The notes under the pieces: generated by a model
What the model was told of the DNA's origin: nothing
Databases searched by the model: none
What the model saw: only the letters and a program-made list of their open reading frames with translations
Shown: one piece after another, positions 39,392-47,842 of the stretch
Position numbering within the stretch: the first letter of the stretch is position 1
Layout: every line of letters starts with the position of its first letter
Origin: Tetrahymena thermophila SB210
Lineage: Eukaryota > Ciliophora > Oligohymenophorea > Hymenostomatida > Tetrahymenidae
NCBI RefSeq assembly: GCF_000189635.1
Contig: NW_002476559.1
Location: 1,240,001-1,304,000, forward strand
Direction of reading: 5' to 3'
DNA length: 64,000 nucleotides
Made by a program: the position numbers and the translations under genes

Positions 39392-42300
39392 ATGCAGAAC
39401 ATAACATCAAATATTCAGAAATACTTTATCCCACCATCTGAGCACTCAAAGCTGTTTTATAACAATCAAAATACTTTTGTTTCTTTTATCAAAGAATTAA
39501 GGATAAAGCCAAAACTGCTTTTGACACTTATAGAAAAGAATCAATTGAATATTTCATCTGCTATAAGAAGTTTGCCTTAAACTCTTTCCCAATCGTTTTT
39601 TCAGTCTCATTTAAAAAAAGGTATATCAAGTGATGTCTTGATATTTATTAACAAAAACATCGAAATGGAAATAAATCTTTCTAATGATAGACAAAATATG
39701 CTACGTACAGACACACTGCCCAAAAAGATTATAAAAGAATTTTTTAATCAACCAAAGTACACAAAAAACTTAGAAAAGATATTTAAAGACACTCTCTACG
39801 AAATTTCTAAATTGACAGAAGATCTTCGATTAGAAAACGAAATGTAAAATATTTTTATCTTTTCATAATAAAGAAGTAAAATCAAAAAATGATAAAATTG
39901 CTTCAAAGAAAAAGTGGATTTAAATTCTTAAAAAAAGTATATATTTAATTTAAGCATAAATATTGCTTTGAAATTAAATTTTAATTAAAGAGTTTAGTTT
40001 CAATGATATTATAAAAAATAGTTTTTGAAAATATTGAATTTATGGAGTTTTATTATAATCATTTAAATAAAAATAGTATAGAAAATGAATCAATAAGGAG
40101 AATAAGTTTGAGAAAATAATCTGACTTCTCAGCTGTAGTGAGGAAAAAGAGTGAATTTAAATCTGCAAAACCAAATAGAAAGAAACTTACTGTGCTCAGT
40201 TCAGGAAATGAACATGTAGAGAGCTCTAACTGCAATAGAGCTGAAAGATATTAAGAAATATTGAGAAGCTTTGATAAATCTAGGATGTTTAGATCAAACA
40301 CTATTTCAGATTAAATTTATAGCATTCTTAAAATAGAACAGCAAAGTAATTAAAATTCAATCATTTTTATTTTATCTTTTATAAAAGATTTCAAAATTAG
40401 ATTAAAGAAAGCATGTAAATGGGAAAAGAACTAAATCAGATCCTGATTTTGAAAAAGAAAGTTTACCTCTATTTTAGATGCAATAAAGTGGTGAAAAGTA
40501 GGCAAATATGTTTACTACCTCAACTTAGCTCACTTTTCCAAATCCTAAAATTTAACAAAATGAAACAGAAACAGGTTTTTCAATCAAAATTTAAGACGAT
40601 TAAATGCAATGGTAGAAATTAGATAGAAGTGATAGCATGGTTATTTAAGATAGATAGCAGTGGCTTTAAGACATAATTAATTTACAGGAGTGGGAAACGT
40701 CTGAAGGTTCAGTTAAGTCTGATAACCCTCAAAGGAAAACTTCTAAAAATGTTCACCAAAACGTACTGTTTTCTTCAGGTTCTTAAGAGTCTATATAGTC
40801 AGCTCCATAATAATTAGAAGGATCTTCTGCTTAACAACCAACTTAAAGGTAAAATAGAGGATTAACTTTAGATGATAAACATAAGCAAATTTTAGACAAA
40901 GAAAAAGAAAAAGTAAAATTTTTATTTTATAAATTTTTTAATTTGAATTAAGAACTAATTTTTGAAAGAAACTTTTAATAAATTAATAAATAAATCAAAT
41001 TTTTTAACCTTTAATTTAGATTAAGAATTAATTTTAAAAACAAGCAATTTTCCTTTCCATCCAATAATAAATTACCAATTTTATTTTTTAAAATCTTTGA
41101 CAATTCAATTTTTAAGTAAATAATTAATTAATTATAAATTTTCAAATTAAAATTAATAATTTGAATCAATCAGTTTAATAAAAAATATTTTATTAATTAA
41201 ACAAAAAAAGTCAGTCAGTATATTAAAAATTTACAAATACATTTTTAAATGAATTTTTAATTATTTGAATTGAAAATAAGATTTTTGAAAACAGCTTTCT
41301 TAATTTAATTTATTTTGAAATTTCTTTAAGATAAATTAAAATTTAATTATTTTTTAAACAATAATATAGATTATTTAGAAGAAGGTGAAGAAGGTTAATA
41401 AGATAATTTAAAATATGTTGGAGCAATTATTCATGAATATCGAGATTATTCCTAATGATATTAGGATTATTTGTGCTTTGATTAAATATCATGCTTAAAA
41501 AAAATACCCTGATTTAACTAATGCCTAGCTTTACTATTCTCTGAGCTACTTTTTCATAGATGACTGGGTGCTTCATATATTTATGAAGAGTTTTAATAAA
41601 TATTAAGATATGGATCAATCTAAGTAGGAGATCTTGTAAAAAAATATGCTTTACATTCAATCGATTATTAAAAATGTAAATAAATTTTGATATTTATTTT
41701 AAATATTTGTAAAATTTGCTTTATTTAACAAATTAGATAATGAAAAAGCAAGTGTTCAAATAAGAAGGCTTAATTGCAAGATTTAATTCATTAATATTTT
41801 AGCTAGGTGATTATGTGACTCATTACTATGATCAACTTATGAATATAGACATGACTAAAATTTTAAATTAAATTATTATTCCGTCTGAACAGAAGAGTTT
41901 ATAATTTTAGCTGTAATGTTTTTTTTTGAAATATTTAATTGTTTAAATTAAAAAATAATAATGAAATTAACATAAAATTATAAAATTTTAGAGATTTCTG
42001 CTCTGTTTATATGAGCTTAGAGAATATTTAAAAGATGGCCCAACTGATTGCTTCTAATGATAAAGATTTTATTTAAATGAATGAAACAAAAGTTGTCGAA
42101 TATGCTAAATCTATCAATATTCAAGCAGAAAAAATATTTAATGATAGATCTGATTTATTCTATGGGGTTACTCTCAAAAAAGACTAAATTTATACAATAT
42201 TTTAATTTTATCATACTGGAGCTTAGGATTTTTTTGATTAATACTTTGATATCCCTTCATTGAAGCTCCCTTACTAACGATTTAGCTAAGAAAATGAGTT

Positions 42301-44280
42301 TTAAGATTCTTCTAAATACTTTGATAAGTTCAAAAACCTTCTTAGAAGCATACTTGTAAGTGTAGAAAAGCTAGAAGTTATTTCTTAATTTTCAGGATTC
42401 AATGATTTGGACATTACTTCTATTCTCAAAATTTTAGAAGATGTAAATTATTTTTCAATTAAATTTTTATAATAAATTAATTAATTAACTTTTTAAAATT
42501 CATTTATTTCTTTTTGAGTTTAAATTAATTTGGGATAGTTATTTATTTATTATTTTACAGTAAGTTTGTGAGAGATATAATTCTGAAATTGTCAATGTTC
42601 CTCTTGTCGCTTCTTACTTAAATTCAATGATAAAAAATTATTTAAATCCAAAATACCTGCAAAATAATCTGCAGCTTATATGGAAATATATGAGTTCAGA
42701 GTATAAAGCGAGAATTAGTTAATTGGAAAGAATTTCTTTTCTTGAAAAAACTAATAACGCTCGTTTAATTAAATTTCTTAAGCTAAATATCAACTAAGTG
42801 GAAGAAGTCATAAGAAAATAAGAAAAAAATAAAAGAAAAATTTACATAAAAGAGTTTTTTGATTCATTTTAGCTAAATGTTTGTATTTCCTCACCTCAGT
42901 CGCGTTTCAAATTAAGTAATACATCAAAAAAATTGTATTCTGAATTTGATCATTCTAAAATATGGGTCGAAGACTTATCTTGTTGCATACATAAAACTGC
43001 TAACCTAGAATTTGTTAAAGATTTAACTGGTAAATAAATAAATAAATAATACACTAAAGAAATAAAATTTTAAATTATCAAAATATTTTTACTAAAAAAA
43101 GATACCTTACTTATTCTTTCATTAATAAAACAATTGTTTAGTAAAATAATTTTTATCATGAAATAATTAATTTTAAAATTTAGAAATAAGATTTGATTAT
43201 TTGTGAAGAAAATAGAAAAAATATGCTATATAAAATATTTATTTAATTTAAATTAGGTGAAATATCTCCAACTAAAAAAGAATAAATTCAAGAACACCAT
43301 TGTGAAAATTTAGTCTAGTTTATTGAAGTAAAAATTTTAAAAGATTAAATGATAATAATAAATTTTATTTATTTATATCTTGTTAGCAATTCAGCAAATT
43401 GCCTGAACTAAATTTATTGCTCCAAGAAGGAAGAGACATATGGGGGATAAATGAAGCTTATTCAATAATTTTAGATAAACTTGAGGATGGAGTAAAAGAA
43501 TATCCTTAATTTAAAAACTTAAATGAAGAACAATAAAACGAAATTATTGAAAGTTTATTTAAATCGATAAACAAAATATTTCATAGAAATCTTTTTCCTA
43601 AAAGATAAACCTATAAAGACGCAGCATTTTATATCTTACTAAAATCATTAGACTTCTTAACACCAGAGAATCTTGAAATAACCAACAATACCCATTCAGA
43701 ATGGATCTGGAAGATATGCTCTCAAAGTACATTTAAATTAATTATGCTTACAGATTGATAAATTTATTAAAATAAATAATAAATTTTTAGTATTAGTCTC
43801 AATGGACCATAAAAAGTCTCCTGAGTAAAAATTGAAATGCCTTTCAGAATGCACAAAAGTAATTGCAGAAGTCTTAAAACTGTCATCTCTTAAAGATGAA
43901 GCAGCATCTGCTGACCTGACTCTTCCTAATCTCATTTATGTCCTAATTAAATCAAAACCTAAAAGACTTTGTTCAAATATTAAGTATTTAATTAATTTTT
44001 GTTTGAAATTTCTTATATTTATAAGTTTTATTTTAGCTTTATAACAGCGTTTCAATGCAAAAATAAAATGCTTTCAGAAGCTGGTTATTGTTTTATATAA
44101 GTGTAAAGTGCCATTAAATTTATAGAAGACCTTGATCCTAGTGAACTGAAGGAAATTTCAAAATAAGATTTTTATTTGTAATCATTAAATTGCTAATGCT
44201 GCTAAATTTTAATTTATTTTTTTTAAATTGAAAAAGAAATCTAAGAAACGAAGAAGTAAAAATAGGTATCGCATATATGA
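39392..44280 (+). CDS. RME-6/GAPVD1-like protein: RasGAP-like plus VPS9 Rab5-GEF
   Basis: Eleven exons: 39392-39843, 40077-40345, 40401-40912, 41370-41675, 41737-41912, 41992-42442, 42561-43029, 43257-43327, 43387-43726, 43791-43983, 44037-44280. Together they give 1160 residues, with all junctions GT...AG and phases matching. Residues 1-150 resemble the first half of the GAPVD1 RasGAP fold, including LRTDTLPKKIIKEFF where the arginine-finger loop would be. Residues about 151-411 are a Ser/Gln/Lys-rich insertion, probably disordered. The RasGAP-like fold resumes near 412 (IPNDIRIICALIKYH). The C-terminus is a VPS9 domain: SPEQKLKCLSECTKVI, ADLTLPNLIYVLIKSKP near 1055-1072, then SNINFI and EAGYCFIQVQSAIKFIEDL. 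VPS9 domains activate Rab5-type GTPases, so a role at early endosomes is expected. The GAP half may be degenerate, since no FLR motif is seen. Confidence 0.85.
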
Positions 44281-45371: not shown

Positions 45372-46325
45372 TCATTTTAAGTTGTTTTAATTTTTTTCTT
45401 AATTTTAAGAAATAGTTTTATCGTTATTCAATTTATTTATTTAGGGGAGTTATATTTAATCTGAATTTTTGTAATAACCCTCATTATTTGTTTTTTCTTG
45501 GCTGAAAATAATCCTTAGAGAAAAATAACTTATTATAATGATGTAGATAGTTACAATGGATATTAGAATAGTAGTTGTGAGTACACTTTTAGAAATATAA
45601 TTTAAGAACTCGACTTTGCAATCCTATCCATCAACAGGAGTTCCATCATTCATATCTCTAAACACATAATAACTATTTGTACTACAAAATCCACTGCAAT
45701 TAAACTTTTCTTCAGATGTTTTAAGTAGACTAACAAAATTTTCTAATTATTTATTTTCATAACCAAAAGGAAACTAAGTATCTATTCTTTTAATATAATC
45801 TTAGCATTCATTGAGTTTGTTAGCTCCTTTTTTAGAAACTGAAAAGGATTAATATATTTGAGGGGGGAAATTAGATTAATCAGCATTACAAGAGCATTTA
45901 GAACTACATAAAAGTTTTTTGCCAGCATTATAAGCAGTGCTTAATTCTATCATAAGGTCTTCTTCAGTACAGTAGATATCATCCTTAAATTACGATAATT
46001 ATACTTATAAAAGAATAATAACAATTATTGATCCTCCAATAAAAAGCATTAATAGGATGATACCAATATTGTATATAGACATAGAATTATTGCTCTTAAC
46101 TCTTTAAGCATATATTCCTAGTGCACCTAATAATACAAAAAAGATTCCAATTAAAATAAGTAGAGTAAAACATTCTTCGCAGTCATCATAAAACTGTCCA
46201 TAGTCTTAAAACTCAGAATTAATTAAAAAAAGAATAACTCCAGCTATTATTTCAGCTAATCCAATAGCTAAATTTACATAGGAAAATCTCTCTACCCAAC
46301 GTAGATTATTCTTAAGGCTTGACAT
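45372..46325 (-). CDS. tetraspanin-like protein 1
   Basis: Uninterrupted minus-strand ORF of 317 residues, ATG 46325 to TGA 45372-45374. Four hydrophobic segments: about 16-38 (VNLAIGLAEIIAGVILFLI), 53-73 (LLILIGIFFVLLGALGIYA), 86-107 (IIVIILL region) and 250-275 (TTTILISIVTIYIIIISYF). TM3 and TM4 enclose a loop of about 140 residues with paired Cys (CSSKCSCNA, then NCSGFCSTNSYYVF). That layout, with small intracellular ends and one large Cys-containing extracellular loop, is the tetraspanin plan, although the canonical CCG motif is replaced by CSGFC. Tetraspanins organise membrane protein assemblies. The last 30 residues are Gln/Asn-rich and weakly coding, so the true C-terminus could lie earlier or use an intron. 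Strong homologue lies next door at 47843. Confidence 0.75.
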
Positions 46326-47842
46326 AAAATTTTGTCAATTTTTTTATTGTAAATAATTTTAATTTTCTTAATTTAATAAATATTTGATTTAAAATGTCCT
46401 GTTTTCTATTTGTTTCTTTGAGGTTTTATTTTAAATAATGTTTAAATTTAAATTTTTACTTAAAAACAAATTTTATTTAGCATTTATTTTTATGCTCTTT
46501 GATTTGTTTGTTAAATTTTAAAAGCTAAATCGATTAAAAATAGTTATGAAATATAATTTTCTTATTAATCGCAGTTTCAATGCAAACAGATGTAAAACAA
46601 TTAATACGATCCTTAAATTTTCTGGTTAAATTTTAGAATCTATTTCAAAATCAAAATATATTTCAATAAATTAATCTATCAATCAATCAAAAAATGACCA
46701 GTTTAATTGAATTAATTCATATAAGAAATTATCAATGTAATACTTAGATTACAATACTTGTAATACAATTTTTGATAATCTAAAAAAAACTATTAGTACA
46801 ATCAATAAATAGTTTATTAGATAGTTATAATAATTTTTTCTTACATCATATGAATTTCAAGATTAAATATACAAACAAATATCTAAAGAATGTCTAATTT
46901 TATTTAATCTATTTTATTTATTCTTTCATTTTGATTTCGTAGAAAAAGAAATTTTTTGTTAGCTTAGTTTTTTTTCTCTACTTTCATATTTTTTATTTAA
47001 TTCTAAATATTTTAGAAAAAGTTAATTTGTGCAAAATGAAAATAATTTTCTTAAGCATAAATTTTGCTTAATATTAAATAAATAAATAAAAATTTAGAAT
47101 ATCTGATAAAAATTATATTTTATCTATACAATTTTTAGATTAAATACAATACTTGTAATAAATTTTTGAAAATCTAAAATAAGTATTTGACTGACAATCA
47201 ATAAATAAATAGTTATAATAAATTTATCTTACATCATACGTATTTCAAGATGTAACTAACATATGGAGAGAGAATGACTAAATTTATTTTATTTATCCTT
47301 ACTTTTTCCTTTCGTAAAAAATGATATTTTTAATGTTAGATTAATATTTTTTATCTCTACTTTCATATATTTTATTTCAAATATTTTAGAAAAGGTTTAT
47401 ACTGAATACCTAAATTATTAATGCAAAATGAAAATATTTTTCTTTAGCAAACATTTTCCTTCATATTAAAAAATAAAAACATAGAATATTTAATAAAATT
47501 AATTTATTATATCATCAGACTAATTTTTTAAGGCTTAATAAAATAAATATAAATTTTTATGAAAATTAAGATAGAGCGAGCGAGTGTTTATGATTTGTAA
47601 ACTAAATTAATTAAAATAATTAATTAATTAATAACACAGGTAAATTACAAAATAAAAATTTATAAATAGATTACATTTTTAAATAAACTGACTTAAATCA
47701 AAGAATTAAATTATATCAATATTTAACTTTTTAGCATTTTTTAGATAAGGAGTTTGCTTTTAATTAGCATAACCTTGATTAGCTTATTGGAGTTGAGGGT
47801 ATTTTTTTTATATGTTTTACGATTAAATTTCTAAATTATATT
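46326..47842. other. spacer between tetraspanin-like genes
   Basis: Promoter region of tetraspanin-like gene 1 and 3' flank of gene 2. Most of it is covered by an imperfect 395-bp tandem duplication and by the second copy of the tetraspanin 2 tail. No other gene seen. Confidence 0.55.
46748..47520. repeat. imperfect 395-bp tandem duplication
   Basis: ACAATACTTGTAATA at 46751 and again at 47146 mark corresponding points. Downstream, both units share TTATAATAA..TTCTTACATCATA-like, CTCTACTTTCATAT and TAGAAAA...ATGCAAAATGAAAATA blocks with many small differences. Non-coding. Confidence 0.75.

Follow-up and report, generated by a model that had tools for sequence, protein, structure and literature searches.

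A Predicted RasGAP-VPS9 Protein with an RME-6/GAPVD1-Like Layout in the Ciliate Tetrahymena thermophila

The window analyzed here is a 64,000-nucleotide stretch of the Tetrahymena thermophila SB210 genome (contig NW_002476559.1, positions 1,240,001 to 1,304,000; G000:C17:1240001-1304000). At positions 39392-44280, on the plus strand, it carries a predicted gene in which a RasGAP domain and a VPS9 domain are joined in one protein. The spliced frame consists of 11 exons (3567 bp) and encodes 1188 amino acids in the ciliate code, 28 more than the 1160 residues given in the initial annotation. One continuous RasGAP-VPS9 gene at these coordinates is confirmed at the level of the genomic sequence. 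It represents a known kind of protein in a new lineage, with an altered RasGAP domain.

The RasGAP-VPS9 gene and its two domains

Both domains exceed their Pfam cut-offs. The C-terminal VPS9 domain is recognized with 102.2 bits (E 2.5e-29; cut-off 27), and the N-terminal RasGAP domain with 47.5 bits (E 2.6e-12; cut-off 28.3), the latter in two stretches. Both had been claimed from the sequence by eye, and the profiles bear out the two domains as well as their order. No Pfam family besides these two was matched by the 1188-residue protein at E values up to 10. Taken alone, exon 1 matches positions 1-63 of the RasGAP profile with 23.2 bits (E 6.9e-5), under the cut-off of 28.3, and its next matches are unrelated families (E 0.009-0.05). 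Exon 4 alone matches positions 105-203 with 32.1 bits (E 1.4e-7), over the same cut-off. The halves in exons 1 and 4 thus follow the order of the profile. In a six-frame search of the whole genome, they reached 22.5 and 24.4 bits, each under the cut-off, and the first RasGAP halves of the two paralogues (C122 and C112, see below) match at 1.1e-10 and 6.5e-8.

The two halves are separated by an insert of 289 residues, and inserts of 200 and 189 residues interrupt the paralogues at the corresponding position. The insert is probably coding, since a short stretch, NxAxxYxxILRxxD, is common to the inserts of this gene and C122. The features of the gene, all on the plus strand, are as follows (window coordinates):

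39392-39843, plus: exon 1, N-terminus and first RasGAP half (Pfam profile 1-63 at amino acids 85-148, ~39644-39835)
39704-39706, plus: Arg105 codon, in the column of the arginine finger, MLRTDT (three-paralogue alignment; Lys in the other two)
39993-40345, plus: exon 2, insert in the RasGAP domain with the NxAxxYxxILRxxD stretch common with C122 (start uncertain; gene finder 40077)
40401-40912, plus: exon 3, remainder of the 289-residue insert (exon model and paralogue alignment)
41370-41675, plus: exon 4, second RasGAP half, profile 105-203 (E 1.4e-7; gene finder start 41379)
41737-41912, plus: exon 5, last part of the RasGAP domain (IQGAP2 alignment extends into this exon)
41992-42442, plus: exon 6, linker (conserved with paralogue C122)
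42561-43029, plus: exon 7, linker (conserved with paralogue C122)
43257-43327, plus: exon 8, short linker exon that brings the frame back for exon 9 (gene finder junctions identical)
43387-43726, plus: exon 9, pre-VPS9 region aligning with Rabex5 and AtVPS9a, then the VPS9 start (alignment with PDB relatives)
43791-43983, plus: exon 10, VPS9 core with Asp1085 (43913-43915) and Pro1089 (Pfam and alignment; gene finder start 43797)
44037-44280, plus: exon 11, VPS9 end with Tyr1125 (44086-44088), C-terminus and TGA stop (alignment)
43708-44136, plus: VPS9 domain, amino acids 1038-1141, spanning two introns (Pfam PF02204, E 2.5e-29)

All 10 introns are of the GT..AG type, and the frame is kept throughout. 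TAA and TAG are read as glutamine in the genes of the window, this one included: its frame holds 52 TAA and 15 TAG codons, and TGA occurs solely as the terminal stop. In each of its five remaining frames, the spliced sequence contains 18-55 TGA. The G+C content is 24-32% in exons 1-10, the exons counted, versus 9-15% in the introns. A purpose-built gene finder returned seven of the ten junctions identically and shifted the other three by 6, 9 and 84 bases; it also picked a different start and end for the gene. Its training set included this gene's own exons and introns, and it therefore provides no independent support. Its disagreements make three parts provisional: the exact N-terminus, the point where exon 2 starts, and the final ~35 residues. 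The model is least secure over these final residues and the stop, where the gene finder placed an intron at 44178-44265.

The adjoining gene (45372-46334, minus strand) encodes a tetraspanin (Pfam 1.1e-14) and is convergent with the RasGAP-VPS9 gene.

Paralogues in the Tetrahymena genome

The genome (101.0 Mb, 445 contigs) was searched for both domains exon by exon, and the resulting locus counts are lower bounds. At least three RasGAP loci were found (six rows), namely the RasGAP-VPS9 gene of the window, C122 and C112. VPS9 loci number at least 12 (13 rows), the RasGAP-VPS9 gene and C122 among them. RasGAP function in Tetrahymena may run largely through endosomal exchange factors, since two of the three RasGAP loci found also bear a VPS9 domain.

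In C122, the VPS9 domain lies 1.8 kb downstream of the RasGAP domain on the same strand. The modelled protein of 1526 amino acids matches both families in Pfam (RasGAP 5.3e-31, VPS9 4.8e-17) and is 31% identical to the 1188-residue protein over 706 columns (blastp, E 4.75e-88). This alignment begins at amino acid 474, within the second RasGAP half, crosses the linker and ends at amino acid 1154, just beyond the VPS9 domain. The first RasGAP half lies outside it and was compared solely in the multiple alignment, where the overall identity is 23%. When the complete 1188-residue protein was searched against the whole genome at E values up to 0.1, the gene itself filled 11 of 15 rows and C122 the other four, and nothing else was returned.

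The RasGAP domain of C112 (locus L016 1-6000) is clear (Pfam 2.2e-21). As a third RasGAP-VPS9 gene, C112 was rejected: neither Pfam nor two home-made VPS9 profiles found a VPS9 domain. Blastp gave no significant match between C112 and the 1188-residue protein (best E 0.65). C112 aligns with C122 past the RasGAP domain (E 2.2e-10) and, weakly, up to the pre-VPS9 region (E 0.019); it may either have lost its VPS9 domain or never have had one. No relatives were found in viral and prokaryotic contig collections, a scope that says nothing on other ciliates.

The C122 copy bears on whether two adjacent genes were wrongly merged by the exon model, an explanation that is rejected as very improbable. 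The exon model was derived from genomic sequence, and three of its ten junctions differ in the gene finder model, as such a merger would allow. However, the RasGAP domain is itself divided over exons 1 and 4 in profile order, and no in-frame TGA precedes the terminal stop. C122 likewise has RasGAP followed by VPS9 on one strand, and it aligns with the 1188-residue protein in one piece that takes in the second RasGAP half, the linker and the VPS9 domain, the first half lying outside.

Among the other loci, a gene for a protein kinase with MORN repeats (Pfam 1.2e-35 and 2.6e-13) adjoins the RasGAP gene of C112, at L016 6560-7942 on the minus strand. The VPS9 genes L001, L002, L003 and L005 share a common divergent type of VPS9 domain that stands outside the Rabex5-like clade, and their open frames have long low-complexity or charged extensions.

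Catalytic residues and proposed mechanism

We consider it probable that the protein is a two-GTPase regulator, in which the VPS9 domain would load GTP on a Rab5-family GTPase and the RasGAP domain would dock on a Ras-like GTPase. The C-terminal VPS9 domain most likely acts on a GTPase of the Rab5/21/22 type, and the proposed site is the membrane of a forming endocytic or phagocytic vesicle. Besides docking, the RasGAP domain at the N-terminus would probably turn off its Ras-like partner through Arg105. By this, a Ras signal would be ended and endosome identity started at one spot. Such an arrangement is suggested by the two activities reported for GAPVD1, which, according to the main text of PMC6032885, acts as a RasGAP on H-Ras and has a Vps9 domain that interacts with Rab5. 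The survey of Rab proteins in T. thermophila (PMC2954822) names Rab21 and Rab22A and the string Rab5 is absent from its text, which points to a Rab21/22-type protein as a possible partner. A Ras-type cycle is plausible, given that the genome has two RasGEF loci (G000:C332:235314-235868, E 4.2e-24; G000:C81:339039-339533, E 2.9e-11). The two enzymatic activities, the place where the protein acts and the GTPase identities are what we infer from the sequence, which supports the exchange activity well and the GTPase-activating protein (GAP) activity only half so.

In the VPS9 domain, Asp1085, Pro1089 and Tyr1125 stand at the likely catalytic columns of the alignment. We take these columns to be Asp313, Pro317 and Tyr354 of Rabex-5, the numbers of Pro317 and Tyr354 and the placing of the columns being tentative. 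In the RasGAP domain, Arg105 (LRTDT) occupies the finger column of the three-paralogue alignment, and the arginine-finger-like LRTDT of the initial annotation has therefore held up.

Several observations weigh against this mechanism. In the VPS9 domain, Leu stands in place of the second Asp in the Rabex-5 pair, and the column that presumably corresponds to Rabex-5 Thr357 holds Ile; the catalytic assignment is thus in part tentative. Asp313 of Rabex-5 is named in the text of PMC4102244. The RasGAP domain departs further from the catalytic pattern. At the FLR arginine column, the 1188-residue protein has Asp, C122 has Cys and C112 has Arg. The 1188-residue protein also lacks the PA motif. Both paralogues have Lys at the finger, so that none of the three copies combines the finger and FLR arginines (the roles of both motifs are treated in the text of PMC12871552). 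GAP activity is uncertain because of the Asp at the FLR column and the 289-residue insert, and the same Asp, together with the missing PA motif, makes the GAP step the weaker half of the explanation. Single-sequence AlphaFold2 modelling of exons 1 and 4 gave no usable structure, with a mean predicted local distance difference test score (pLDDT) of 39.6 and 52.4, respectively. Even for GAPVD1, the function of the RasGAP domain is called largely unknown in a passage of PMC8038846.

The main rival to the two-GTPase regulator, to which we give a little less than an even chance, is a pseudo-GAP. A non-catalytic RasGAP domain would then read the GTP state of a Ras-like protein, or serve as a scaffold in the manner of the IQGAP GRDs, and steer the VPS9 domain to Ras-marked membrane. 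The replaced FLR arginine, the lack of a PA motif and the Lys at the finger of the two paralogues all fit this explanation, as does the fact that the nearest PDB relatives are the non-catalytic IQGAP GRDs (for their loss of activity, see the text of PMC12871552). It is, however, hard to explain for a dead domain why Arg105 is kept in the RasGAP-VPS9 gene alone of the three. The match to the IQGAPs says little on activity, because IQGAP2 is also the top PDB match of the RasGAP domain in the provisional GAPVD1 sequence used here.

Relationship to RME-6/GAPVD1 and other known proteins

All comparisons with human GAPVD1 rest on a provisional sequence of this protein. Pfam recognizes in it RasGAP (2.1e-42), VPS9 (1.2e-31) and DUF5601 (2.3e-18), which supports the sequence at the domain level only. 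In a VPS9 tree of 12 sequences, the RasGAP-VPS9 gene (C17) pairs with C122 (bootstrap 94), and both form one clade with Rabex5, AtVPS9a and provisional GAPVD1 (93). L007 joins this clade next (99) and six other loci of the genome stand apart; the tree took in seven of the ten other VPS9 loci and neither Alsin nor Varp, so that the contrast is with those seven only. Within the clade, the pair of C17 and C122 goes with Rabex5 at 51, and provisional GAPVD1 with AtVPS9a at 70. In a tree of the second RasGAP half (8 sequences), the support for the placement of GAPVD1 was 45-52.

The RasGAP profile built from the three paralogues scores provisional GAPVD1 at 26.4 bits overall, versus 46.1 for IQGAP2. 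This ordering is weak evidence, because the best PDB match of the provisional GAPVD1 RasGAP domain is itself IQGAP2 (28.5 bits). The first half of the profile gives 15.8 bits to provisional GAPVD1, 7.2 to NF1 and 2.1-2.7 to the IQGAPs, whereas in the second half the order is reversed (5.5 for provisional GAPVD1 versus 43.9 for IQGAP2). In pairwise blastp, the first half matches provisional GAPVD1 at E 0.032 for the 1188-residue protein and 0.006 for C122. Pfam DUF5601, a helical bundle before the VPS9 domain, reaches E 0.0019 in C122 (18.7 bits, under the cut-off of 23), and C122 is its sole match in the genome (E 0.022). The 1188-residue protein gave no match to DUF5601 at E values up to 10.

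A homology of the linker to the human GAPVD1 segment preceding VPS9, suggested by eye, was dropped, as no similarity above shuffles was found. In local alignment of the RasGAP-VPS9 gene product, the score against provisional GAPVD1 was reached by 10% of 2000 shuffles with BLOSUM62 and by 46% with BLOSUM45. Over all sequences and matrices the fraction ranged from 10% to 98%, the paralogues being higher with BLOSUM62. With a two-sequence linker profile, the best match of the real segment reached -1.0 bits, whereas the eight top-scoring among 1000 shuffles had 4.4-6.5 bits. The description of the protein as RME-6/GAPVD1-like is kept for its layout; membership of that lineage, and with it orthology, is possible but not established by the VPS9 tree, the second-half RasGAP tree or the linker shuffles.

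The survey of 48 genomes and 9 transcriptomes by Herman et al. 2018 (PMC6032885) reports, in its main text, clear GAPVD1 orthologues in Amorphea only. RasGAP+Vps9 proteins are described there in Dictyostelium (Amoebozoa), Fonticula alba and animals, together with a single putative, weakly supported Naegleria sequence; RasGAP domains are also mentioned on Vps9 proteins of individual unnamed taxa. The view of the initial annotation that such two-domain proteins are best known from animals was thus an understatement. No SAR case is named in the sections covered, and neither of the words ciliate and Tetrahymena turns up in the main text, tables being outside this count. RasGAPs in certain ciliates are noted in a paper on Dictyostelium NF1 (PMC4374526), the main text of which does not contain VPS9. 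Among the matches listed from the open-licence literature, no title announces a ciliate RasGAP-VPS9 protein; automatic InterPro or UniProt annotation may already show the architecture.

An independent fusion, in which RasGAP and a Rabex5-type VPS9 domain were joined within ciliates separately from the fusion in GAPVD1, stands at about an even chance. The VPS9 domain goes with Rabex5 rather than GAPVD1, if weakly at a bootstrap of 51, the linker does not resemble that of provisional GAPVD1 above shuffles, and the RasGAP profile scores IQGAP2 higher. C112 is without a detectable VPS9 domain, as expected for a fusion after RasGAP duplication, although its weak alignment with C122 to the pre-VPS9 region (E 0.019) suggests a loss of VPS9 instead. 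The identical domain order in GAPVD1, the preference of the first RasGAP half for provisional GAPVD1 over NF1 and the IQGAPs, and the report of RasGAP+VPS9 in Naegleria also speak against separate joining. In another reading, which we hold possible rather than probable, the ciliate protein is a true GAPVD1 relative, and the fusion was already present before Amorphea, Naegleria and SAR diverged and was lost in most lineages. If true, the fusion would date to near the eukaryote root, and the link between Ras shut-off and Rab5 switch-on would belong to the ancestral make-up of endocytosis.

Ciliates lie in SAR, and a ciliate RasGAP+VPS9 protein is a real extension of the known distribution, by older origin or by second fusion. 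This regulator of endocytosis may be older than thought or built more than once. If the architecture arose twice, this would argue that joining Ras-off to Rab5-on is useful. The duplicated gene in a ciliate makes the age of the architecture directly testable.

Among proteins of known structure, the C-terminus comes closest to Rabex-5 (5.5e-21) and Arabidopsis VPS9a (1.7e-20), both Rab5-family exchange factors. The alignment takes in the VPS9 module together with the stretch that directly precedes it, and Asp, Pro and Tyr are kept at the likely catalytic columns. To our knowledge, Rabex-5 and VPS9a have no RasGAP domain, unlike the ciliate protein, in which Pfam found no A20 or ubiquitin-binding zinc finger of the Rabex-5 kind at E values up to 10. 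For the RasGAP domain, the profile of the three paralogues has its best PDB relatives in the IQGAP family, fungal GAP1 included (IQGAP2 2.4e-11, IQGAP1 4.7e-10), followed by p120GAP and neurofibromin. In contrast to the IQGAPs, no CH, WW, IQ or RasGAP_C domain was found in the 1188-residue protein or C122 (Pfam, E up to 10), and no CH, IQ or RasGAP_C in the scanned 1135-residue part of C112 (same threshold). The IQGAPs have Thr at the finger and YYR for FLR according to the text of PMC12871552, whereas the ciliate protein has Arg and IDD.

The overall layout is that of RME-6/GAPVD1 (Gapex-5, RAP6), with RasGAP toward the N-terminus, a long linker and VPS9 at the C-terminus. The VPS9 region matches that of provisional GAPVD1 at 4.3e-12, and in both proteins the finger Arg is kept and the FLR Arg lost (Cys there, Asp in the ciliate protein). 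Human GAPVD1 is longer, with ~1480 versus 1188 amino acids, and the ciliate RasGAP domain differs from it by carrying the large insert also present in its paralogues.

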